From Anadara kagoshimensis (Eukaryota; Mollusca; Bivalvia; Arcoida; Arcidae), in contig CM037865.1 in assembly GCA_021292105.1 (NCBI GenBank), positions 66,027,630-66,091,629 on the forward strand: a stretch of DNA of 64,000 nucleotides, given 5' to 3'. Below are positions 11,298 to 59,885 of this stretch, piece by piece. The notes beneath the pieces were generated by a model that had not been told where the DNA came from, searched no databases, and saw only the letters and a list, made by a program, of their open reading frames with translations. Within the stretch, counting starts at the first letter, position 1. Each line of letters begins with the position of its first letter. Made by a program: the position numbers and the translations under genes.

Positions 11298-11420
11298 CCC
11301 TCTTTAAAGGGGAGATAATTGAGAATTATTGAAACTTTGTTGGTATTTTTCAAAAATCTTCTCTCAAAAACTATTCGGCCTGTAAAGCTTAAACTTTTGT
11401 GGAGGCATCCTTAGGAAGTG

Positions 11421-12270
11421 TAGATTCAAGTTTGTTCAAATCATGGTCCCCGGGGGTAGGGAGGGGCCACAAGAGGGGGATCAAGTTTTACATAGGAGTA
11501 TATAGAGAAAATCTTTAAAAATCTTCTTCTCAAAAACTATTAGGCCTGAAAAGCTCAAATTAAAATGGAAGCATCCTGAGGTAGTGTAGATTCAAGTTTG
11601 TTCAAATCATGGTCCCCGGGGGTAGGGAGGGGTCACAAGAGGGGGATCAAGTTTTACATAGGAATATATAAAGAAAATTTTTAAAAATCTTTTTCTCAAA
11701 AACTATTAGGCCAGAAAAGCTCAAATTAAAATCGAAGCATCCTCAGGTAGTGTAGATTCAAGTTTGTTCACATCATGGTCCCCGGGGTAGGGAGGGGCCA
11801 CAAGAGGGGGATCAAGTTTTACATAGGAGTATATAGAGAAAATCTTTAAAAATCTTTTTCTCAAAAACTATTAGGCCAGAAAAGCTCAAATTAAAATGGA
11901 AGCATCCTCAGGTAGTGTAGATTCAAGTTTGTTCAAATCATGGTCCCCGGGGTAGGAGGGGTCACAAGAGGGGGATCATGTTTTACATAGGAATATATAA
12001 AGAAAATTTTTTAAAATCTTTTTCTCAAAAACTATTAGGCCAGAAAAGCTCAAATTAAAATCGAAGCATCCTCAGGTAGTGTAGATTCAAGTTTGTTCAA
12101 ATCATAGTCCCTGGGGGTAGGGTGGGGCCACAAGAGGGGGGTCAAGTTTTACACAGGAATATATAGAGAGAATCTTTAAAAATCTTCTCCCCAAAAACTA
12201 TTAGGCCAGGAAAGCTCAAATTAAAATGGAAGCATCCTCAGGTAGTGTAGATTCAAGTTTGTTCAAATCA
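11421..12270. repeat. Tandem array of about 165-bp units
   Basis: The word TAGATTCAAG recurs at 11421, 11587, 11753, 11918, 12082 and 12248, giving periods of 166, 166, 165, 164 and 166. Units are roughly 90% alike and contain GGTCCCCGGGGGTAGGGAG and AAAAACTATTAGGCC. The regular period and few indels suggest recent internal amplification. Confidence 0.9.
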
Positions 12271-12794
12271 TGGTTAAATAATAGTGTATTTTCCATGCTG
12301 TATTCTTTTATATAAGTATTTTGATATAAAGTTAAATATATTGTTCATGAGAAATATATTAATTGTACTTGTATTTAAAAGCTAATTTTTAACGTAAATC
12401 CTGCTGTATTCTATAATTTCTATTTGCCATTTCCCGATTACAGTATTCGGCCTATGCATTTTCTCTCTTTTGAGATTGGTAGATTGCATGATGAAAATTT
12501 TTTTAAAATTATTTCATTGGTTGAAATGCTGTAAGAAAAAGGTAACGGAATAAGCCGAGGCTTGTCGAAACATCAACCTTTTACGGTACATAGAAATACT
12601 TACAAATTGTTTAGTGAAAAGCATCGGTAGGAAGTATAGATTTCAGTTTGTACAAAACCTCCCTCCCCTGCACTCACTTCAATACTGAACTCATTTCGGC
12701 TTCTACCTAGCAAGTTGCTCAGGTGAGCGATGTGGCCCCTGGGCCTCTTGTTGTTTAATGTATTTTTTTTTAATTGTCCCAGATACTAAATAGG

Positions 12795-15039: not shown

Positions 15040-15275
15040 TTTATGTTCTCCATAAACGATTTTCCAAGCACACGTTCTGGTATTTTCCCATAAAAAATTT
15101 TCCAAGCACTCATTCTGGTATGTTCCCTTAAACAATATTCCAAGCACATGTTCTGGTATGTTCCCTTAAACAATATTCCAAGCACACATTCTGGTATGTT
15201 CCCTTAAACAATTTTCCAAGCACATTTTCTGGTATTTTCTGATAAACAATTTTTAAAGCACACATTCTTGTACAT
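15040..15275. repeat. 38-bp minisatellite
   Basis: CCAAGCA recurs at 15064, 15102, 15140, 15178 and 15216, with a last degenerate copy at 15254: an exact 38-bp period. The unit contains TTCTGGTATGTTCCCTTAAA. The overlapping minus-strand frames here only reflect this repeat. Confidence 0.9.
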
Positions 15276-18480: not shown

Positions 18481-18516
18481 ATTCCATGGAATACAATTCT
18501 TTATCAGTAGCGCTTG
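18481..18516 (-). ncRNA. Hammerhead ribozyme remnant, 5' half
   Basis: On the minus strand AAGCGCTACTGATAAAGAAT keeps the helix I 5' strand and CUGAU of the core; the 3' half is lost. Inactive relic. Confidence 0.5.
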
Positions 18517-18561
18517 AACCAATATGGTATCAATATAAAAGGGAAAGAAATTGACATGCCT

Positions 18562-19215: not shown

Positions 19216-19410
19216 GGATTTCAGAATTTAGCTAAGAAAATACTTTGCATGAGGGAGTATACCTAAGTTTTTGGGGAATTTAAGATTTTTACTAACAGAA
19301 AATTTAGACAATAGTATATTTATGACCAAAAGTATTGCCTACTGAGGTTTATATTATGACAGTTTTGATTTTACAACACTAGACGGTCGTTTGCGAGTAT
19401 AAAATAACTA
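19216..19410 (-). mobile_element. Hammerhead-unit fragment, minus strand
   Basis: Carries the body of the 330-bp unit (GCTAAGAAAATACTTTGCATG, TATTGCCTACTGAG) and at 19373-19397 the 3' half of the ribozyme. Confidence 0.65.
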
Positions 19411-21196: not shown

Positions 21197-21484
21197 ATCA
21201 TCAAATACAAACTTACTAATCCATGTCCGAATCACAATCCAGAAGTAAAATTTTTGGAACTGACAAGTTAGGTTAGACACGTGAACCTCCACCATGGAAG
21301 TGAGACCGGGTGCTCCGGAAGGGTAAGCACCTCCTTTAAGTTAGCTACACCCGCCACGTGTGTAATCAAAATTGTGCGAAAGGAACTTTGAATTATGAGA
21401 TATCAAATGTATCCAGGACAATCCTGGACACAGAGACATCAAACTTATCAACAATACTGTGATGACGGCCATAAAACTTTTATA
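21197..21484 (-). mobile_element. Well-preserved retroelement 3' fragment
   Basis: Read on the minus strand it gives the RT C-terminus (KFYGRHHSIVDKFDVSVSR), the stop and the whole tail. One of the least diverged copies. Confidence 0.8.
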
Positions 21485-28294: not shown

Positions 28295-29024
28295 CTACAC
28301 AACACGGTGGGTATTATATTACTTGGCATTTATTACATAACACGGCGTAACATACCTTATGAGAAACAAATACAACTAAAGCAGGAAATGTAGCTACTTA
28401 GTATATTGTGCATTGAAAATGAAATTGGCAATATAAAGTCAACACGTTTGACATAAAGTTTCAAATGTAGCAGTTCTTGAAAAAGTGTATTTAATTTCAA
28501 ATATAAATTAATTCAAATGTATTTCATTTCAGAATGTGCAATCCTTCTTACATTAATGTGGTGTTCTTAGATTGATTTGCCAGACTTATAACGCACTTTC
28601 TTTGTATATCATCTCTCCATTCATTATTTAACATAAAACATAAAATACAATCCAGTTTATTAACCTTAATATGTAATTTAAGAGTGCTGCACTTGGTAGT
28701 ATGTCATTCAAGAGGATTTTAATTGGCTATATGTGACACCATCTATGTACAGAGTAATTGTTTGTTTAATAAATGTATACTGCTCGTTTGAATTTAACTA
28801 ATAAGATCAATATGTAATCATATATGCACATTGTAATTCAAAGTTTCATTGCGTGGTTAAAACACACAATTCCGTATTTTTATTCATTTACTCATTGCAT
28901 CACGCTACTGCAAAAGGAATGAAATGATAAACGCGATAATAATAACTGAGAAAACTTATTATAAAATGGCCTTGTGGCATACTGATTAGACAGTGTATTA
29001 TCTCTTTGTGATGATAAGATTAAA

Positions 29025-29322
29025 TAAAAAACAAACATACCAATCCATTCCGAATTACAATCCAGAAGCAAAGTAAAAACTTTGGAACTGACAAGTCAGG
29101 TTAGACAAGTGAACTTCCACCAGGGAATTGAGGCGGGTGCTCCTGAAGGGTAAGAACCTCCTGTTTAGCTAGCTACGTGCGAAATCAAAATTGTATGAAA
29201 GGAACATGGAACTATGGGGCCTCGAATATATCCAGGGCAATCCTGAACACAGAGACATCAAACTTATCGACAATACTGTGACACTGGCCATAAAACTTTT
29301 TGAGGGCCTTGATAAAGCCTTT
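29025..29322 (-). mobile_element. Retroelement 3' fragment, well preserved
   Basis: Complete tail and RT C-terminus with stop; small deletion in the tail near 29170. Confidence 0.8.
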
Positions 29323-33724: not shown

Positions 33725-33905
33725 CATGTCGGCTTCTGCAAAATATATCTTTTTCTATAAATTTTAGAAAAAATATATATTTGATTTTTTGGATATTTTT
33801 TCAATAGTTGAAAAAATTTTAGTTTCACAATTTCGGCCCAAGCACTTGTGATAAGGAATTGTATTCCTTAACGATCGTATGGTATTGTAAAATTAAAACT
33901 TGTAA
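33725..33905 (+). mobile_element. Hammerhead-unit fragment
   Basis: Body of the unit then a degenerate ribozyme at 33841-33887, in which the core reads GUGAUAA and the GAAA box is lost. Confidence 0.6.
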
Positions 33906-34095
33906 AATACGTCATTTTTTCATATTTGTTTTCTTCTATTTTATATATGCATATTTATGCAGCACTGGATTTATACAGTTGGAAATAGTTGAAGACTCTC
34001 TAATAGTTCTTGAACCATAGAACTCGACATTTACTTCAATGTGCATCGACATTTAGGCATTTTATGATGTGGATCGAATATGAGTGTTTATCGTT

Positions 34096-34295: not shown

Positions 34296-37200
34296 CTTGA
34301 AAGCAAACAATTTGTATTTTAATAATTATGATGTCTTTATATACAATTCATTCTCAATTTTTATTTTACTCTTGTCGGGTGTAGCTAGCTATACAGAAGG
34401 TGTTTACGTTTCTGAACCACGCGAAATCATTTCTCTTCTGGAAAGTTGGCGTAATTTACTTTATTTGCTACTTTGGATTGTGATTTGAATATGTATTGGT
34501 ATGTTTGTTACAGCAAAAGGTACATGTAATTTGCATGTAATCATACTAACTGAATGAAAAACTTTTTTAGAGGTTAATCATATTGGGCTTATTCCTGAAA
34601 GTGCAAAATCCCACTTAAATAAAAAGGTTATGTGATGAATGTAAACGAAAAATATATGAAACAGTGGCACAACAATGGTTCTTTCATAACATTGATTTAT
34701 TCTAGTAAACTTTAACATGAAAAACAAAACAACTATTCACATCTGTTTAATATTTTTCATTTCACTAACAACACTATTTCATGATTCGATGATTCGATTA
34801 ACAATAACAAACGACGTAGTATTGCGATTTAATTATATTATTATTTACTTAAATTTTTGTTTGGTTTTCAAATATATACATTTATAACAGAGTAGACCAC
34901 GTCTTGACAAAACACCATATACACACGCATTTGATCAGAATTCTAATTTGTTACCATTATATAATCGTAAGAAATATTCAATCATTTGTAAATAGAACAA
35001 AAATTAAAGCCACGCTTTTTTTATTAGATTACACTAACAAGGTTACGCCATTTATGAAAAATATGATTTAGGTTTCCTCTTGTTTTATATATTATCTTTT
35101 CTAATAGATTATAGTATTGCGATTGAATATAAATTCACAAAATATTTATTTTAGTGAATGTTGTTTTTAGGAACTATATTTGCCAGTTTTGAAAGTATTG
35201 GATTGTGATTTGAACATTGACCGATGTGTTTGTTTTTTTATTTAAAGAAACAACCGATCGAACTGATTTCACCCTGTGTATATCGATGTTTTATCTTTTC
35301 GTCGCGAAAAAAGTTCGGATGTTATAGATATACAAATGTTATTTTATTTATGTTATAAATAAAATTTTCCTTATCTACAAGGCAATGTACAAACTTTGGA
35401 AACTGACAAATAAAGTTAAGCAGGTTAACTTCCATCGGACAAATACTAGTGAGCCTGGGTGGACTGTTACTGTAAGCACCTCCTGAATAGCTGGCTACAA
35501 CTGCCATGTGGGTGAACCAAAATTGAAAATTATCGAACATGGAACTATTGAACGTTAACTATATCCATGATAATAAAACAATCTATGCCCAAATTACAAT
35601 TCCAAAGGGATATAACAAAATTTGACATTGGTAATTTGAGTTAAACACATGACCTATTACCAGGGACGTGAGTGCGGGTGCTGCTGAAGAAATAACCACA
35701 ATCGCCACATGTGTAAGGAACATTGAACATTGAAATAAAAGGAACATGGGACCAGGGTAATATTGGATACAAAGACACGATACTGCCTCATGCAAAATAT
35801 TTCCTTAGGAATTTTGGCTAAACATATTTTGTTCTTTTGTGTGTTTTAACCTTTGTGAACAAAACTCTTGGTTTCACAAATTTCGTCTTAGGAATAAAGA
35901 ATTGTATTCTGAAACGGCCGTCTAGTGCTATAAAATTAATAGCATTTCATAATGAAAATTGTAGGATTTTGGCAGATGAGAATATTAAAAGAATGTTGAA
36001 AATATTACTTGGTCATAGCCTTATAGTCAAGAACACGACACAAAAAATAAAAATATAAGCAAGGCAAGAAAAGCTTCACATATTTCCCTCAAAAATTATA
36101 AAATTCGTGTATGCAATATGCTCTGCGGTGATAGGGAAAACTGTGTCCATTTATTACACGTTTATAATTTTCTGGTCAAAACAAACATACTAATTCATGT
36201 CCAAGGCGCAATGAGACCGGGTGCTCCGAAAGTGTAAGCGACATGTGCAATCAAACATGGAACTATGTCATCCCATCAGATATTTTTAAACAGATCATCA
36301 ATAGATATTAGACACTGTACATTATGAGCATAGCTTCATTATTTATCAGAAAACCGAAAGCGCACAAATTATCGCGTTTCATGTCACGTCACGGTAACAA
36401 TGTAACATCTGAACATAAAAAAGTATGCGTCAAATTTGTCTGCGTTACGTTAAAAGCCATTACATTATCCAATTAATATATACACGATATATATAGATTA
36501 AAATATATTTTATTAAGTTTTACTTGGTAAATGGTAATGAACATACGAGGGAAAATAAAAGCTCTAAAACAGCTAACCAATCTGATGCAAACATCAATTA
36601 GTGATGATAAAAAAGACTATCATAGGAATAGGAAATCAAGTTTGATGTTATTTCAAATGAAATTCGCCAATATACACATTGCCTGTATGTGGGTTGTGCT
36701 CATATAGACAATACTCTTTATGACACTAAACGCGTGGTACTTTGTATATAGTGCAATTTTTTCGTCTACATTTGATCTTTTTGATTTCTGACTCATGATT
36801 GGAATCAATTTACAAAATACTCAAGCCTTTATATCTTGGTAATTTTGCATTTATTGCTAGAAGAGTTGTATTTTATCACGCTTTCTTTATTGACTTTGTT
36901 ATAATGCTAAAGTCAGGTTATTAACAAGAGTGTAATATGACCAATGAACGTATACAAATCGAAAGCAATATTAACATCCTTAAACAATGCACAAATATGA
37001 TAAAAAAGGGAAATTCTGTATCACTAAACTGATACAAAATTTATTTTCCCTAACTATGGTATTGAAACCATTTTACAAAAATAACCACGGTAACAAACCT
37101 GTAAACTATCATAAACTTAAAATCAATATTGTGGATTTTCACATTTTTTGTTTTTATGGCAACGGATGCCATACTTAATGTACATTGAAGGCAACACTCC

Positions 37201-40200
37201 TGTTAAATATATAATTGTAATATGGGCCACAATTTGCGAGAAGAATTTTGTAGAAAACTTTCTTTCACAATCGTCAGGAATAACAAGTCAAAACTAACTC
37301 TAAATATGTTTGAAAAAACTAACAGACATGAAATAAAATAAGTTATGAAGTAAATGCGGGTAAGACAGCTATTTAAAATGCTGCCACGAGTTAGATAGTT
37401 CGCCAAGAAATACAGAGTCATTAAGTCAGTAACAAACTTTACATACAATAAGCTTCATATAAAATAAAATGTTTTGTTTAAATAAAAAAAACCAAACATA
37501 TTGGTCCATATTCATATGACAATTCAAGATGCAAAATAAAAATTTTGAAAACTGGCAAATACATTTAAGCACGTAAAGAAATGAGGTCGGGTGCTCCAGA
37601 AGGGTCACCGCCTCGAAGTGTATATAACAGTTATTCAAAGGACAGATTATTTGAAGTAATCCGAAATATTTGTTGAAATTAATTACAACACAGTGTATTT
37701 TGGTTTATTAATTATGAAAAAAGTGGCGTTTTATTATTCTCCCAATTTGAAAATATAAGAAAAACGTGACGAGCTTAACAAAAAGGAATAATATCTAGTG
37801 TTGTCAGAAATATGGCACTTCTCGGGTGGTGTAAGCATTACATTATTTTTATTTTCGTTTCGTGTGATGTATTATACCATTTCTTTTCTTTTGTGTTTGA
37901 ATGACTCTGTAGTATTGTCCTTGGCATGCTAATTCTAAAACATCTGCTAATTCAGTTCCACATTCCTGTAAAATGTTCGCTCCAATTGAGGCAACAGCTA
38001 AAGTACACATTATGACGATATAATTCCAAACAGTCTTCATCGATACCTGAATGTGAATAAATAAAATTAACAAACAATGAGATGTTTATACTCAAGATGT
38101 GACAGAAAACTAATCTGAGTTTTTATATGAATTAACTAAGAATAAAGCAGTTTTTTCATATATCTAATCAAATTCTTTGGTCATTATAAATTTCTTTATA
38201 AAATTTGGTAAAATATATTTTTGTCCTTGGGTAGTTTTTCAACATCTTGAAAAAATATTGGCCCAAGCACTACTAATGAGGAATTGTATTCTGAATAGGC
38301 CGTCTATTGCTGTAAAATTGGAACTTGTAAAATAAATATGCAATTAAAAGAATTAAAATGGCCTACAGTTCAGCCTGTCTTAAAGTTGACATCTAAATAA
38401 AGGTCACCTGATTATAAAGGTCTGTAGAATTGTATCCCCATTGTTCTTTATTCATATTTTTTGAACATGTATATAAAGACATTTTTTACTGGTTTCGTTG
38501 GGTGGCCTTTATAGACAGGTTTCACTGTAATCATTTTAACACCATCGTATAATAAACTACGGACAGGGCAAAAACACTTTAATAAGTTAATCGGTAACAA
38601 AAAAGTGTTATTATCTTCGCATAAAGTTTAACTATAGAAAGTTCATTTCCATTTGACAGCCATATCAGCTGGGACAACAATATATTTGTTGTGTATGCCT
38701 GTTAGAATTGCCGAAATATCAGGATCCCTGAGTACTGAAGACGGTTTAGTAATCATAGACCCTTTAAGTTAAATAATCCGCGTTTTGAAAGATCTCACAA
38801 CCTTTATCCAGTATGATAGAAGGTCATGCCATGTCTTCTGTTGCGATATTAATTAAATCCATAAAAGTTAAATTTTTCTATCAATTAATTGTCTACTCAC
38901 AGTTATATGTCTAGGTCTATGAAATAAATGTTCGACTGATCGTAGTTTAATCAATATAACAATATGTCTAAAATTATGTATAGTTTTCTAGCAATATTTT
39001 AAATTTAATATCTGTTAATGTGGTTTTTAAAATGAACATAAAATTTATCGTTGCAAGGTCTCCAACATTTTTTACCCTTTTATGAATTGTAGAAATTTTA
39101 TGTTAAATTTCAAAATTTCAAAGTAATGTTGAAGACTTTTAATTGAATAATCAACCTTTTTCGAATTTTGTGTTTTGTTTAGTTTCTTCCCAATGTCATA
39201 GAACACTTTTCACATCACATGGCGTTTAGACTGTTGGTAAAAGCTACTGCTATTATTAGAAAACAGTCCATATTTCGTGTTTTGTTTTATCCTACCATTT
39301 AATTTATACAAAAAGAGCCATAATTCGCCATTTTTATTCTAAATGATCTATTTTCAAATCTGGAGAAAATGGTTCATTTTTATAAATACAATAATAATTT
39401 ATTTATTTTAAAATTGTCTGTCAAAAAAATAAACGCATAATATAAACATAAATGCAATGAAATAATACACTGATATTAAAACCGTCGAAGGTAATACGTC
39501 ACTGAATTAAACATTATTTATAGTGTCACTGCAAGTCAAAATAGAAATGGTAGCTGTGTCTGCCATATATAGAAAAGCTAATAAATATATACATTGAAAT
39601 AATAACGATAGTAGTTTATCTATCATCAAGCACCAAAGCAACAAGCAATCAATAAACAGGTACTCAGACTATTTTGAAACTATCAATTATAGTGTATACG
39701 GCAATACAACATCAAATGCTGCAGTCAAAGTACTTATGCACTCCCTTGGATTTCCTTGATTTATTAGCCTTATTATAACCAAAAACAAATATACCATGTC
39801 CAAGTCACAATCCGAAACCAAAGTAAAAACTAAAAAACTGAAAAATTAGTTTAAACACGTGCATTTCCACCATAGAAGTGCGGTCGGTTCCTCGAAAGGG
39901 TAAGCATCTGCTATTAAGCTTTCTACAGTCGCCATGTGAGTAATCAAATAAAAAACAAACATACATTCCCAACTGAGAATAAAAGTAACATGTAACTACG
40001 GTGCATGAAATATATCCAGGGTTATTTTCGATACAGAGACATTTATTTTCAATATTTTGATGACGATCATAATCCTTTCAGGGTCTTAATAAGCTAAAGC
40101 TAGCAATATCTTTGTGTAAACGATTTATTTGTAAGCAGCTTGCTTCGTTGTATTAAATTCCAGTAATTGTTACAAGCTCGATTATTGCGTGTTAATTGTG

Positions 40201-44869: not shown

Positions 44870-46970
44870 GTTTGGTTTTGATATAAATTACCAAATGTGT
44901 TCTTACAATTACCACACTTGAGTGAAAGGTGTTCGTATAGAATGGTTTAATGACACCTGATAATATACTACCTTGGTCGTAGTAAAATGTTTATGTATTA
45001 CGGGAGTGAGCATAGACTGATAACTGACGACGGATTCATGACGAAATCATATATTTTGAAGAAAAAAAATTAAATTTTTCTATTGGTCATTTAACTTAAT
45101 TTTTTATAAAATAATGGTGCATGATGGTGCATTATAAGCTGATTCAGGGTGGTAGAAACTTGATAGGTGTTGATGTTTGATTGGTTAATAATGCAAACTT
45201 GTCTAAAGGGCAAAATTAAATTTGAATGCGGACAGCAAGACGGGTATTTTTTAAAGTGTCTATGAATTTATTTACAGCATTTATTTTTTATCAAATTTCT
45301 AGTTTTCATTTGTTTCTTTGTCACATATTCTATTTATGTTGCATTTATATTTTTTTCATGATCGAAAAATTGACGTTGAAATGTAGAAATTTGGCCTCTT
45401 TTTCGAACTGAAAATTGTCAAAATCACAATTATTTTTTATTTATTAGCATTAGATGCTGATCATTTGTCAAATAATTAACTTAAAAATTCAATTGCGTGA
45501 ATGACTACCTGTGTTGTATTTGAAGCCAGTGGCACTTTTCGATATTTAATTGGTTGAACTCAATTCTGGAAGATGTGCTGTCTATAGCCGTTTCAGTAAA
45601 ATTTAATATAAAATATATTTTAATAAGTGATTATTAATTTCCGTATATTTGATAAATGGTACTCGTCGCATATGTTTGGTTATGCCTCAGCTTTGTTCAT
45701 CAGAGAAGTTTTGCATCGCCCTTCCAGCAACTTCTGAAAACCGTGGGAGTACGTAGTATGTTGTTGACTTTGTTGAAGATTTCTTGAAACGTGTAGATTG
45801 TCACATCAAATACTAGTGGCCAAATATAATTTGAAATAAGACAAAAGATAAGATATAACAAACAATAATGCTTCGTATAAAGGACTTATTGGTAATTATA
45901 GCACAGTAAAATGAATCTTGTTACGACAATGAGTTTCTACATTTTTTTAATTTGCTGAGTACCTTGTTCCACACACCTTCCAAGTTTTTGTAAAATATTT
46001 GGCAAATTAAACGCATGAATAATATATTTACAAGATTAAAAAGACGGCAGATTAAATGTTTTGTCTTTAATAATTTTAAATTGAATGTTTTTTCAACAAT
46101 TAATGCTTTTCGGGATTTTCTTTCAAAAGTACCTGAATGAAATATTAGAAAACATTAGTTTTCAAAATCTACAGACATCTTCAACAAGAATCAAATTATA
46201 TACCTTTGTACGCATTCACAGGTATCGTCATTCATATTTTTTTGACCTTATAAAAATTCAAATTATAAACTTTACGTGGCCAAAAATGCTACTAGACTTA
46301 TGTTTTTGGAGTTCTTTTTCAAATAATTAGAATTTCGTGACTTCTATAGAATAAAGTATTTGGAATCATTTGCAAGTCTGATTGTCGTATTACAATATAC
46401 TAATGTTATTTTGAGATAGACAGATAATTTTATGTCCATTCCTAGGAGTAATAAATCTTGAGTTATATTACATTTATGCGCTCGATGAATCAATATAATT
46501 TTCAAAGTTTGCTCAGTTTCGCTGCCTGTTGAATGGATTTTATTATTTTTTATGCAATAGTCGTAAACAAATACCAATCAAGTAATAAATAAACATAAAG
46601 CGCATGCATTAATTAAAGGCAAAAGTAACTTACCAACCCCTAAAATGAACTTCTTAGGAAAAATGGGAACTACCACGATTAACTTAAAGAGAATACCTAA
46701 TAGAGAATGTTAATGAAAGTGGGCACGACTGAAACACTATACACCAACTGCTAAAGAATGGAGTGGGATGTAAAGAGTTTGTCTGTGTCGTATGCTCCAC
46801 AATAACCAAGGCTAAACTTAAAAGCAAAGCTGCATACTCGTCTTCTCGTACAATTCTGTATTTAAATCCAGGTGGGGAGTTTTACCATAGATGGTCATTG
46901 TGTATCTATACTCATGTTGTTTGACTTTTTCTTTTTAATCTTTTACATCTTTACCTATTCTTGAGTGTAA
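44870..46970. other. AT-rich DNA, nothing recognised
   Basis: A minus-strand donor-like CTTACC at 46632 is the only feature noticed. Confidence 0.4.
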
Positions 46971-46972
46971 TG

Positions 46973-47216
46973 TTTCTATGGCTGCCATCACAACATTGTT
47001 GATAAGTTTGATGTTAATGTGTCTAGGATTGCCCTGAATATATTTGCGTCCCATAGTTCCATGTTCCTTTCACACAGGTAAACAGGAGGTGCTTAGCCTT
47101 CCGAAGCACCCGCCTCACTTCCCTGGTGGAAATGCACGTGTCTAACCTAACTTGTCCGTTCCAAAGTTTTTACTTTGCATCTGGATTGCGGTTCGGACAT
47201 GGATAAGTATGTTTGT
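46973..47216 (+). mobile_element. Retroelement 3' fragment
   Basis: RT C-terminal block and full tail to GGATAAGTATGTTTGTT; stands 57 bp before a hammerhead array on the same strand. Confidence 0.8.
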
Positions 47217-47272
47217 TATTTATTGTTACCAAGAACACAATTTTTGTTTCATGGAACTGGCATTTGCATAAT

Positions 47273-47297
47273 ATTCCGAAACGGCCGTCTAGTGCTG
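47273..47297 (+). ncRNA. Hammerhead ribozyme, 3' half
   Basis: ATTCCGAAACGGCCGTC and TAGTGCT intact; 5' half absent at the array edge. Confidence 0.6.
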
Positions 47298-47587
47298 TAA
47301 AAATTAAAACTGGTATAATATGGAATCTACAGTTTCATCAAATTAATAGTAAACAAATGTGAATGTTCACAAAATCAGTAGGCACTAATTTCGTATTATT
47401 GTCAAAAATATACTACATGTATAATTGTCTAAATTTCCTGCAAGTTAAAATTTGAAATTTCTCAAAAACTAAGGTATACTCCCTCATGCAAAGTATTTCC
47501 TTAGCTTAATTTGGTAAAATATATTTTGGTCCTTTGGGTAGCTGTTCAACATTTCCAAAATAATTTTGGTTACATAATTTTGGTCCA

Positions 47588-47633
47588 AGCACTACTGATG
47601 AAGAATTGTATTCCGAAACGGCCGTCTAGTGCT
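47588..47633 (+). ncRNA. Type I hammerhead ribozyme
   Basis: Helix I AGCACTA (47588-47594) pairs perfectly with TAGTGCT (47627-47633). Core CUGAUGA at 47595-47601; helix II GAAT/ATTC with loop UGU; GAAA at 47615-47618; short helix III A-U, C-G closing palindromic GGCC; predicted cleavage after C47626. One A-C mismatch (47602/47614) at the base of helix II may weaken it. Confidence 0.75.
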
Positions 47634-47919
47634 GTAAAATTAAAACTGGTATAATATGTAATTTAAACCCCTGAGCCGATATCTCTGCTGGTGCCCTAAA
47701 GATATCACAAACTCAGTAGGCAATAATTTCGTATTATTGTCAGAAATATACTATAATTGTCTAAATTTCCTGCAAGTTAAAATTTGAAATTTCTCAAAAA
47801 CTAAGGTATACTCCCTCATGGAAAGTATTTCCTTAGCTTAATTTGGTAAAATATATTTTGGTCCTTTGGGTAGCTTTTCAACATCTTCAAAATAATTTTG
47901 GTTTCATAGTTTTGGTCCA

Positions 47920-47965
47920 AGCACTACTGATGAGGAATTGTATTCCAAAACGACCGTCTAGTGCT
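47920..47965 (+). ncRNA. Type I hammerhead ribozyme, core mutation
   Basis: Helix I, CUGAUGA, helix II and GUC are intact, but the GAAA box reads AAAA (G12 lost), which should abolish cleavage. Confidence 0.7.
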
Positions 47966-48163
47966 GTAAAATTAAAACTGGGATAATATGTAATTAATAT
48001 GTGTTTATTTTCATTTTATGTTCACAATGATGCAAACTATGTCCTACAACAAATTGTTATAATTAAGAATTATAATTAAAAAAATTTATAGGTGCTCACT
48101 CAATTTTAACTATGCGGCTTTAGTAAGCGTTGTTAAAACAGAAATAAAAAAAATGCAACCAAA

Positions 48164-48370
48164 TCATAAATAAACATATTAATTGATATCGAAATTACAA
48201 TCTCAAAGCAAAGTGAAAACAATGAAACTAACAAAACATATTAAACACGTGAATTTCCACTAGAAAAAAGAGACCGGGTACTCCGAAAAGGTAAGGACTT
48301 CATGTTAAGCTGTTAAGCTGGCTACACCCACTACGTATGTAAACAAAATTGAGAGTAAAAGGAACATGAA
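48164..48370 (-). mobile_element. Retroelement tail fragment
   Basis: Tail with GAGACCGGGTACTCCGAAAA. Confidence 0.65.
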
Positions 48371-49480
48371 ACATTCAAATAAGCATTTACAGAGGAATAG
48401 TCAATCGACAAATTAGAACAAGCTTAACATATGCATGTATTGGGATCACTGATTATGAAATTCTAGACTTTGGGTGGACACTGAAATAAATGACAAAATT
48501 ATGCCTAGATATGTGGCTTTAGTGATATATATGAAATCATGTTGGATAATGCTCAATACAAATGTACCAAGCTTTATACAAGCTGATTAAGGGATATAAT
48601 CTGTCATTGTAGACAGCATATTGTTAAATACATTACACTACACGAGCTTCTTTCTTTGAAACATGCTGAAATATATGTTACATATATTACCTAATCTCCT
48701 AAACACAAGTAGATGGTAATAAAGTATTTATCTGTTTTGTGGATCTTTCTCATCCATCTAGATAGGCATGAAACGGTTCATGAACTGTTTCATGGTATAA
48801 CGAACTGTTGATTAATGTGCAAACTGAATGTGTAAAAAGTCGCTTTAAAAAACGACCAGTAATCCAGATTGTACAAGACAACATATTAATTACATATTAT
48901 ACCAATATTCTAAAAAAATCTTTTTATTCCACATTTGGCTTCAAATACGATTAAAATAGACATCGATGCCCTGTTTGTAAAATCTAACTTTGTTATTTAA
49001 CGTTCTACTTAAAAATATTTATAACCCAACAAGGATTGTACCAGATTTTGGTTTATACAAAATGTATAAACTATAAAACCAAGTTATTCATTCTAAACTC
49101 AAAGAAATAACATTTGAAACGCACTGAAAATGTCTAAATGTTAAGAATTGTCTTTTAATTATGACGCCATTAAAGGACACGTGGTCATGTGGGATACGAC
49201 GCGTATCTCACATATACCAGAAACCTCTATCTTATATCAACAGATGTGGTCATCGATTTTTGTTGACGTTCTGTCGGAAAATGATTATGACATAATCGCT
49301 ATCGCCTCGGTCAATATCACACCATAACCAACCACTCAGTATCTACCAAGATACTAGGACTTCAAGTTTTTCACTGCTAATTTAAGACTGAAGTTAAGAA
49401 TATAATTAGACGTTTTGTAGATCACTTTGCTTTGTCTTTACAATTAGTATTAAATGTTATGATATCAGGTATACAATAAT
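48371..49480. other. AT-rich DNA, nothing recognised
   Basis: No frame, array or family copy seen. Confidence 0.4.
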
Positions 49481-52210: not shown

Positions 52211-52660
52211 TTGATTACATAAGTCGAATCAACATTAATATGCGCACCTGTATATCATATGACATTGTTGAATTTAATGTTAATATAATAACAGTAACAA
52301 TAGTTTTACTTTTAGCTATGAGGCATGTTTCTGTCAGAAATAGATCGCTTAGTGATATCAAAGTGTAGAAATGTTGTGCTAGAGAAGCGAATGTAAAAAT
52401 GAAATTATCCTCAAATAGATAAAACAAGATCGTTCATATTATCTCTATTATATTTTTATACAAAGTACATTCAGTTAAGTTGATGTACAATAGTTGTGCT
52501 TTAACTCCAGTCTAAATTATTTGAGTTATAAGTCAAAAGCAAGTGATAAAGTTGTGTTATATGGAATTGGTAGATTAAGGGTTTTAGAACTATGATACAT
52601 ACATGGAATATAAATATATAAAGGAATATAATTTACATTTTATACCAGTTTTAACTTTAC

Positions 52661-52706
52661 AGCATTAGATGGCCGTTTAGAAATAAATCTCCTCATCAGT
52701 AGTGCT
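52661..52706 (-). ncRNA. Hammerhead ribozyme, mutated
   Basis: On the minus strand AAGCACTACTGATGAGGAG keeps helix I and CUGAUGAG; the GAAA box is UAAA and GUC is AUC. Inactive. Confidence 0.6.
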
Positions 52707-52936
52707 TAGAGCAAAATTGTGAAATTAAAATAATGTTTTTTGAGATGTTGAAAAGAACCAAAATATAGTTTGCCAAATTTAGCTAAGGAAATAGTTTTAG
52801 ACAATAGTATATTTCTGACAATAATACACAATTATTGCCTTGCCTTCTGAGTTTGTGATATCCTTGTGGAAACATCCACAAGCAGAGATACCGACTCAGT
52901 GCTTTCAATCACATATTATACCCGTTTTAATTTTAC

Positions 52937-52980
52937 AGCACTAGACGGTTGTTTCGGAATACAATGCCTCAGTAATGGTG
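52937..52980 (-). ncRNA. Hammerhead ribozyme, mutated
   Basis: 3' half intact (ATTCCGAAAC, CGTCTAGTGCT) but the core reads CUGAGGC. Confidence 0.55.
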
Positions 52981-53238
52981 TTAATACCAAATCTGTGAAA
53001 TCAAAATAATTATGTTTTTCAAGATGTTGAAAAGATACCAAAACGACCAAAATTATTTTTACCAAATTGAGCTAAGGAAATAGTTTGCTCAAGGAAGTTT
53101 ACGTTAGTTTTTGAGGAATTTTAAATTTTAACTAGCAGCAAATGCCTACTGAATTTGTGATATCCTCAAGGAAACATCCACCAGCAGATATACCGGCTCA
53201 ATGGTTTAAATTACATATTATACCGGTTTTAATTTTAC

Positions 53239-53281
53239 AGCATCAGATGGCCGTTTCGGAATACAATTTTTCATAAGTAGT
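53239..53281 (-). ncRNA. Hammerhead ribozyme, mutated
   Basis: ATTCCGAAACGGCC kept; 5' core lost. Confidence 0.5.
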
Positions 53282-53518
53282 AATAATTGTGAAACCAAAA
53301 TCATATTTTGCAAAATTTAGGTAAGGAAATACTTTGCACAAGGGAGTAAATCTTAGTTTTAACTAGCAGCAAATCTAGACTTTAGTATATTTTTTACTAT
53401 AATACACGATTTTGCCTACTCAGTTTGTGATGAACTAGGGGAAACATCTGTCAGCATATAAATATCAAATGTAATGAAATATTTAAACATAACTCGAATC
53501 GAATGTTAATGATTTGTT

Positions 53519-56689: not shown

Positions 56690-56890
56690 AATAAATGACA
56701 TGGACAAAAATAAAATATCCAAACAAAATTATTTTACAAATACAGTTTGTTCCTCTGGGTATTTTTTCAACCTCTTGAAAATAATTTCACAATGTTAGTC
56801 CACGCACTACTGATGAGGAATGTTATTTCGAAACAGTCGTCTAGTGCTGTAAAATTAACACTGGTATAATATAAACCATATGCCTAAATT
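56690..56890 (+). mobile_element. Hammerhead-unit fragment
   Basis: Distal body and a complete ribozyme, just outside the TTAA element. Confidence 0.7.
56804..56848 (+). ncRNA. Type I hammerhead ribozyme, core complete
   Basis: Helix I GCACTA (56804-56809) pairs with TAGTGC (56842-56847); core CUGAUGA 56810-56816; helix II GGAAT/ATTTC with one G-U pair and loop GUU; GAAA 56830-56833; helix III A-U and C-G around AGUC; GUC with cleavage after C56841. All conserved core bases are present, making it the best candidate for self-cleavage in the window. Confidence 0.8.
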
Positions 56891-58856: not shown

Positions 58857-59564
58857 ATATTAAACATTGAATTGTATTTTTCATTTTTGAACCCCTACAT
58901 AATTTGCTTTTAATTTTTAACATTTTCTTTCATTTTTTAAAATCCCAATATAAAAAATAAATATATTTTGACACATATGTACTTCAAAATCGTCATTTGA
59001 CACGTCCGTGGATGTGAAAAATAAGCGTTTGAGCGAAGTTTCATTTGATCAATAACCTTTTTACACCTAATATGGTCCGTCGGCGTTATTTTGGTAGAGT
59101 CTTAATAAAAACAGAAGATTATATATAACGTAGCTAGCCTAAGGCATGGATATATAAAGGTGGACAAATGAACGCATGAGGGCGTGAATATACGTTTACG
59201 ATAACACGGTATAGGCAAACAACACTGACCTGTCCGTTTGACCTTTTATTACGAATACTCAGTATTGTTATAGGAGGGTCCATCCATTACATATGTGATG
59301 TTAGGATTAGCAGGTAATTATAAAACCAGTATACTAGTATACACAAGGCACTTGATTAGTGTTCTCCTTATGTATACGAAATAGGCGAATGTGTTCCTTA
59401 TACATAAATGAACTGGTCCGTGATAAATATTTAAATTAAAGGTCAAGCGGACATGTCAACGTTGTTAACCTATAAACACAATATCCCTGACGGACTATAC
59501 GATCATCCCTAATTCTAAATTGCAAGCACGTCTAAAGAAATCTAACATAAACATTCCAAATTAA

Positions 59565-59885
59565 AAAAACCTCATACTAATCCATGTCTAAATGAAAATC
59601 TAGAACAAAGTAAAACTTTGAAACTGACATATTAAATTAATTACGCGAACTTCCACCAAGGAAGTGAGACCAAGTGCTCCGGAAGGGTAAGCACCTCCTG
59701 TTTAGCTACATGCACCTGACACGTGTGTAATCAACAGTGGGAGTGAAAGGAACATGGAACTATGTAACGTAATATACAATGTATACCCATAGCAATCATA
59801 GACACTGAGACATCATACTTATCAATAATACTGTAATGACGGTCATAATTTTTAGGGCCCCGATAAGCCTAGGCTTGCACATCAT
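59565..59885 (-). mobile_element. Retroelement 3' fragment, well preserved
   Basis: Complete tail, RT C-terminus and the upstream GATAAGCCTAGGCTTGCA block. Confidence 0.8.

Follow-up and report, generated by a model that had tools for sequence, protein, structure and literature searches.

The genome of the bivalve Anadara kagoshimensis carries thousands of dispersed copies of a short element with a type I hammerhead ribozyme. Most of the copies examined terminate at the same point on their 3' side, 37 nt beyond the ribozyme's cut site, while their 5' ends vary, and tandem arrays of the element occur at several places. The explanation that accounts best for these observations, and probably the right one, is a non-LTR retrozyme for which reverse transcription begins at a set position inside the RNA, 37 nt beyond the cut. 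The window, which is the whole 64-kb stretch of DNA analysed here, contains a locus near position 47,300 that is a decayed pair of metazoan non-LTR retrozyme insertions and not a single array of three ribozymes.

Two decayed insertions in the window

A sequence-only reading of the window had described a tandem hammerhead array at 47273..48000 with a period of about 335 bp, in which three boxes would mark the boundaries of RNA monomers of 330-337 nt. TRF, run on the 64-kb window, places a repeat with a 332-bp period at 47367-47995 (1.9 copies, 93% matches), which bears out the repeat but leaves the first box outside it. The CGAAACGGCCGTCTAGTGC box is indeed present at 47277, 47614 and 47946, and boxes with up to three mismatches occur eight times in the window against none in 100 shuffles; the first one (given as 47278), however, starts no monomer. 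The segment 47328-47366 has matches, among the loci that we collected, only in the window itself and in L001, which is identical DNA. Nearly all matches to 47300-47390 (261 of 265) either end at or before 47338 or start at or after 47367, and the remaining four comprise two self-matches, a 46-base match in locus L106 and, in L020, an alignment of only 71% identity. The equivalent segment of the second unit is covered end to end by 97 matches. Because 47328-47366 lacks relatives while its counterpart in unit 2 is common, we read the locus as a 5'-truncated fragment ending at the family 3' end, a spacer of about 40 bases, and a separate insertion of 1.9 units.

All parts of this locus lie on the plus strand. 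The first insertion (47272..47327, end approximate) is a retrozyme fragment that keeps the 3' half of hammerhead 1 and lacks the CUGAUGA half; from its cut at 47289/47290 a tail of 37-38 nt reaches the family 3' end. The spacer at 47328..47366 is not retrozyme sequence. The second insertion (47367..47995, 629 bp) has the 3' end ...TATGTAATT, 37 nt beyond the last cut, and contains the single true monomer of the locus, 332 nt from cut site to cut site (47627..47958). The other predicted monomer, of 337 nt, would be a chimera with foreign DNA, since the locus consists of two insertions. A 10-nt match between the 5' junction (~47362) and the 3' flank (~48019) of the window insertion was noticed by eye and judged to be chance.

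The array had been called ageing, and its ribozymes agree with this. Ribozyme 1 has lost its 5' half. Hammerhead 2 (47588..47633, plus strand, cut 47626/47627) has helix I AGCACTA/TAGTGCT, CTGATGA, GAAA and a C-GGCC-G helix III, so its core is intact, but its stem II, AGAATTGTATTCC, has an A.C mismatch at the base. In hammerhead 3 (47920..47965, plus strand, would-be cut 47958/47959), helix I, CTGATGA and stem II are intact; the damage lies in GAAA, which has become AAAA with loss of G12, and in the tetraloop, where GACC replaces GGCC. G12 is a catalytic residue of the hammerhead, and judging from these changes hammerhead 3 is expected to be inactive. The locus would then likely make at most one cut, and with at most one working cut a monomer should not be released from it. 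Rfam reported no hammerhead in the window at its gathering score, and likewise none in 46800-48600 at E<=10; on two hammerheads of another genomic locus, L109, its Hammerhead_1 model scored 28.1 bits (E 2.8e-4), below the gathering score of 34.

With one unit as query, blastn found relatives at eight places in the 64 kb, the main locus included, on both strands. A second, more decayed tandem copy lies at 52629..53431 on the minus strand, with boxes at 52662, 52938 and 53240. A single 5'-truncated copy at 56738..56872 (plus) has a hammerhead at 56810-56846 that retains CTGATGA, GAAA and GTC. Single decayed copies lie at 38202..38334, 35780..35939 and 33770..33917 (all plus), a decayed fragment at 19225..19392 (minus), and a short decayed fragment around the hammerhead at 18488..18522 (minus).

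The window also holds other repeats. One family of short interspersed repeats, about 280-320 bp long and marked by the hairpin-like motif ggtgcttaccctt..agcacc, is densely scattered over both strands, with many members in every 64 kb, among them 21200-21481, 29022-29320, 59559-59870 and the two copies on either side of the array (46969-47227 and 48159-48372). We considered a larger composite element bounded by these two copies and rejected it, since the repeat is simply frequent: counted by eye, it is present in about 15 of the 77 flanks of sample 1 (described below). An array of 166-bp units at 11352-12274 (5.6 copies, 92%) has no match to the retrozyme unit, and an array with a 38/76-bp period lies at 15042-15272 (3.0 copies of the longer unit).

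A genome-wide retrozyme family

We searched the genome (1.115 Gb in 36 contigs) for exact matches to the element. The 44-base intact type I hammerhead has 2081 copies and the 38-mer that runs from the cut as far as the 3' end has 2121, while the reversed pattern has none in either case. Better copies than those of the window thus exist elsewhere, as the sequence-only reading had supposed. It had also named a complete absence of tandem units elsewhere, together with a lack of circular RNA of that size, as evidence against a retrozyme, and the tandem half of this is contradicted by arrays of 13 or more units, such as the 13 ribozyme sites in a row at C3:9334925-9339028. Thousands of dispersed copies together with long homogeneous arrays agree with its retrozyme-like label; overall, its tandem hammerhead observation is partly confirmed and its retrozyme interpretation partly supported.

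Among 58 cut-to-cut stretches, 53 measure 310-344 nt, the others being 276 or 626-1351 nt. The 53 units have a mean GC of 0.336, and their longest stop-free run is 75 aa (median 49). The unit in the window contains no purine run of 10 or more. One retrozyme array, at C1:47277328-47278805, has an irregular spacing of 352-368 compared with the usual 336-340.

We collected 151 ribozyme sites including those of the window, 130 of them with 75 nt of element upstream. A canonical hammerhead is present at 83 of the 130, and in 64 of these 83 helix III is C-GGCC-G. Two intact copies are predicted to fold together as a double hammerhead with an 8-bp helix III (-34.5 versus 2 x -12.3 kcal/mol), and exactly this dimer fold is the predicted minimum at 53 of 126 collected sites outside the window. 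Helix III is therefore mostly of the weak palindromic kind, and the hammerhead is predicted to act as a dimer. The predicted stability of circles from six monomers is no higher than that of shuffled sequences (z -1.66 to 0.27), which speaks against highly self-paired circles of the published kind. Matches to a minimal hammerhead pattern of the type found in Penelope-like elements (PLEs) numbered 11 (two for the reversed pattern); by their stem letters they look like retrozyme variants, and we set this pattern aside.

The element fits the metazoan non-LTR retrozymes of Cervera & de la Pena (2020) and would be a new addition to the retrozymes of animals. Such retrozymes are characterised by a type I hammerhead, tandem repeats of about 150-450 bp from dimers to multimers, GC below 45%, the lack of an LTR and of a long reading frame, target duplications that exceed 4 bp where they occur, and self-cleavage with abundant linear and circular RNA. 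Like those of Mytilus galloprovincialis, Acropora and the axolotl (PMC7229834), the element here is built of GC-poor tandem units of ~330-340 bp that carry a type I hammerhead but no long reading frame, and it is present in thousands of copies in a genome that also contains a PLE. Unlike the helix III given there as typical of invertebrates, helix III here consists of one C-G pair (beyond A15.1-U16.1) and a palindromic tetraloop. In this it resembles the axolotl HHR_Amex1, which that paper describes as having a palindromic helix III and acting as a dimer, in contrast to the typical invertebrate form. The plant LTR retrozymes (PMC7761336, PMC4918200) are likewise non-autonomous and release a unit flanked by hammerheads. 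Their hammerheads, however, are described as type III, and they have LTRs of ~350 bp, a 4-bp target duplication, a primer site and a polypurine tract, whereas the hammerhead here has an open helix I, the type I topology.

A fixed 3' end and variable 5' ends

To describe the ends of the copies we used a circular numbering in which c1 is the first base past the cut. Two samples were aligned. Sample 1 comprised 40 loci scored out of 2208 candidates, minus the window's own (39 loci, 36 after duplicates were removed); it favours copies of at least one unit and was unselected for the c37 end. Sample 2 was drawn from the 2121 exact matches to the 38-mer: the first 68 along the contigs, which reach 35.5 Mb on C1, gave 64 loci, 55 after duplicates were removed. 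The 12 duplicates dropped were L024, L030, L041, L052, L062, L067, L071, L080, L081, L082, L091 and L094.

Of the 36 independent loci in sample 1, 33 have their 3' end within c33-42, the exceptions being L012 (c330), L019 (c24) and L023 (c329). The corresponding figure for sample 2 is 49 of 55, with L049 (c67), L057 (c325) and four loci whose fetched stretch ends within an array as exceptions; since this sample was selected by c1-c37 plus the base before the cut, it is blind to earlier 3' ends and to the number of 37-nt run-off copies. Genome-wide, the sequence that begins at the cut has 3482 exact matches when it extends to c31, 2121 when it extends to c37 and 526 when it extends to c43, so that the loss in the six bases past c37 is far steeper than in the preceding six.

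The 5' ends, in contrast to the 3' end, fall in all ten tenths of the circle, although unevenly. Both ends had at first seemed fixed when read from the rows of the search alignments, but our own alignment showed the 5' ends to be variable. The 51 copies of sample 2 with both ends range from 45 to 1200 bp (median 250); 40 are no longer than one unit and 11 exceed 339 bp. Copies shorter than ~110 bp are rare (2/51) and those of 194-222 bp frequent (14/51), a bias suggesting that the point at which synthesis stops may be non-random. At L106 (625-1009) we also observed a head-to-tail retrozyme pair in which the second element begins, at c188, exactly where the first stops, at c39.

We infer that the 3' end at c37 marks the start of reverse transcription. 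From such a start a linear, ribozyme-cut monomer would yield at most 37 nt, whereas the collected copies cross the cut site. In PMC7229834 no fixed 3' end is described in the parts drawn on here, and among the matches listed in our literature searches, judged by titles and abstract openings, none reports a fixed insertion end for animal retrozymes. As far as these searches go, the fixed internal start and its link to the initiation of PLEs are new.

Beyond c37 the flanking sequence is AT-rich and has no fixed motif, and the flanks that were printed show no shared tail. Empty sites of L046 and L041, found in related repeats, indicate a target duplication of at most about one base among the alignments listed. 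A possible duplication of 6-9 nt was seen at 15 of 86 loci compared with an average of 5.8 in 300 permutations (p 0.003), in a test run at one of three tolerances tried and on 86 of the 91 independent loci, five being too close to the locus end. Of these 15, 14 begin in the last 2-3 bases of the element, usually (A)TT, and the element itself ends in ATT; some of the matches reach into the 5' end of the element, and the same (A)TT end is present in the permuted controls. An earlier test on 39 loci gave no excess of target duplications. A copy on the opposite strand within about 100 bases was found only at L013 and L066 of the 91 loci, the next being 498 away.

A possible route back into DNA

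In the mechanism that we propose, living copies elsewhere in the genome would be transcribed and their RNA cleaved at every type I hammerhead; the hammerheads probably work in pairs, predicted to join through the palindrome ACGGCCGU. RNA that stays uncut, circular or multimeric, would be reverse transcribed at an AT-rich target from the one internal start, c37. Synthesis would pass back over the cut site and halt at a variable distance, so that the most frequent product would be a 5'-truncated single copy and more than one round would give a tandem array. The analysis shows the family itself, its copy number, its tandem arrays elsewhere, the fixed 3' end and the variable 5' ends; we infer transcription, cleavage, circularity and the enzyme.

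Several other explanations need to be weighed against this one. The element could be a plain satellite whose ribozyme is a fossil and which owes its spread to recombination or DNA circles, without reverse transcription. This would suit the homogeneous arrays of 13 or more units; we consider it very improbable, because either process would leave both ends variable, or whole units, and not dispersed copies with one exact 3' end and variable 5' ends. SINEs and LINEs, too, typically combine a fixed 3' end with 5' truncation, and a LINE-type reverse transcriptase that moves a linear RNA terminating at c37 would match these general traits. Against this speak the 11 of 51 copies longer than 339 bp, in which the sequence goes on beyond the start for a second and even a third unit, and the lack of a common tail after c37 in the flanks read, and we regard such a route as improbable.

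The nature of the template is a closer matter. It could be a linear, multimeric, uncut transcript of genomic arrays, with circles as by-products, and we give this a lesser but real chance. In vitro, PLE insertion did not require hammerhead activity and unprocessed RNA is, in its authors' view, the main substrate (PMC11167929), unit lengths are mixed in arrays L033 and L020, and young arrays could be homogenised by unequal crossing over. On the other hand, units of L011 and L109 are closest to their own neighbours, with mutual identities of 0.985 and 0.988 compared with at most 0.982 and 0.979 to any other unit. Across 20 pairs in eight arrays the difference is slight (0.937 within arrays, 0.935 between), and the mean within the array exceeds the mean to others in six of the eight, the exceptions being L033 and the chimeric pair of the window. 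Furthermore, with 40 of the 51 copies in sample 2 no longer than one unit, multimeric transcripts could come only from a minority of arrays. This proportion, together with the abundance of circles reported for the three animals tested (PMC7229834), leads us to favour the circle over the multimer as template.

For a retrozyme reverse transcribed from an internal start, the likeliest class of enzyme would be the reverse transcriptase of a PLE. In vitro, a PLE protein starts reverse transcription inside the RNA, downstream of the hammerhead cut; its start sequence is not homologous to the target DNA, and cleavage at 5'-ATT-3' is preferred (PMC11167929). Hammerhead activity was not needed for insertion, and the authors of that study, whose text contains neither 'retrozyme' nor 'circular', regard unprocessed RNA as the dominant substrate. 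Judged from its sequence, the retrozyme here appears to have the same geometry. It also resembles the hammerhead PLEs described as Poseidon of Anolis (PMC11167929) and rotifer Penelope (PMC3846280) in having a hammerhead tens of bases upstream of a fixed start, a probably AT-rich target, 5' truncation, partial tandems, and target duplications that appear to be short or absent. Unlike them, it encodes no protein, has few inverted partners and units of ~335 nt, and shows one main 3' end instead of two.

This genome contains a PLE locus, L112, whose 728-aa protein combines an RT domain with a GIY-YIG domain at the C terminus. A hammerhead-like motif lies past the stop codon, and its dimer is predicted to fold as a double hammerhead (-17.2 versus -11.4). 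Rfam does not recognise this motif; a scan for hammerheads of the same type gave none in 12 Mb of random sequence on one strand, with rules written after the motif had been seen. Of two copies of the L112 family read in letters, one enters (AT)n 38-47 nt beyond the cut, at a boundary obscured by a run of T, and the other 83 nt beyond it. Among 40 scored copies, those alignments that stop early mostly do so 44-64 nt past the cut; among 40 scored in a second search, those that continue mostly enter the AT repeat. The two 3' ends of this family, at ~40-60 and 83 nt past the cut, resemble an optional PLE tail. Inverted pairs are common among the PLE copies of this genome, and the L112 family continues into (AT)n; the retrozyme insertions share neither trait, which speaks against mobilisation by a PLE. 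So does the lack of sequence similarity between the retrozyme and L112 (best E 0.04), which, with the different target, led us to reject L112 as the exact helper.

Two further observations concern the PLEs themselves. Inverted PLE pairs were noted at L112 (4690-5360 and 1229-1876) and elsewhere in the genome, and some such pairs mix short and long 3' ends and run into (AT)n. PLE fragments at C13:49725124, 49726849 and 49727544 start no more than one base from where the PLE hammerhead cuts, as though reverse transcription had ended by run-off at a 5' end made by the ribozyme; they lie less than 3 kb apart and may represent one event.

That a PLE would mobilise the retrozyme leads to a broader proposal, which we advance tentatively: animal retrozymes may be parasites of PLEs that mimic the module of hammerhead and start site, such that the PLE enzyme starts 37 nt past the cut and rolls one-sidedly round the RNA circle to produce tandem DNA. 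A 2020 review from the laboratory that described these elements (PMC7761336) states, in the part drawn on here, that animal retrozyme repeats have no conserved motif pointing to a helper element. The start 37 nt past the cut, common to most copies examined, is a clue to how retrozymes re-enter DNA, and with it the proposal can be tested on a single RNA circle with a single purified enzyme. If true, parasitism on PLEs would account for the dimer-type hammerheads in both kinds of element, and the fixed start offers a reason for the presence of hammerheads in PLEs.
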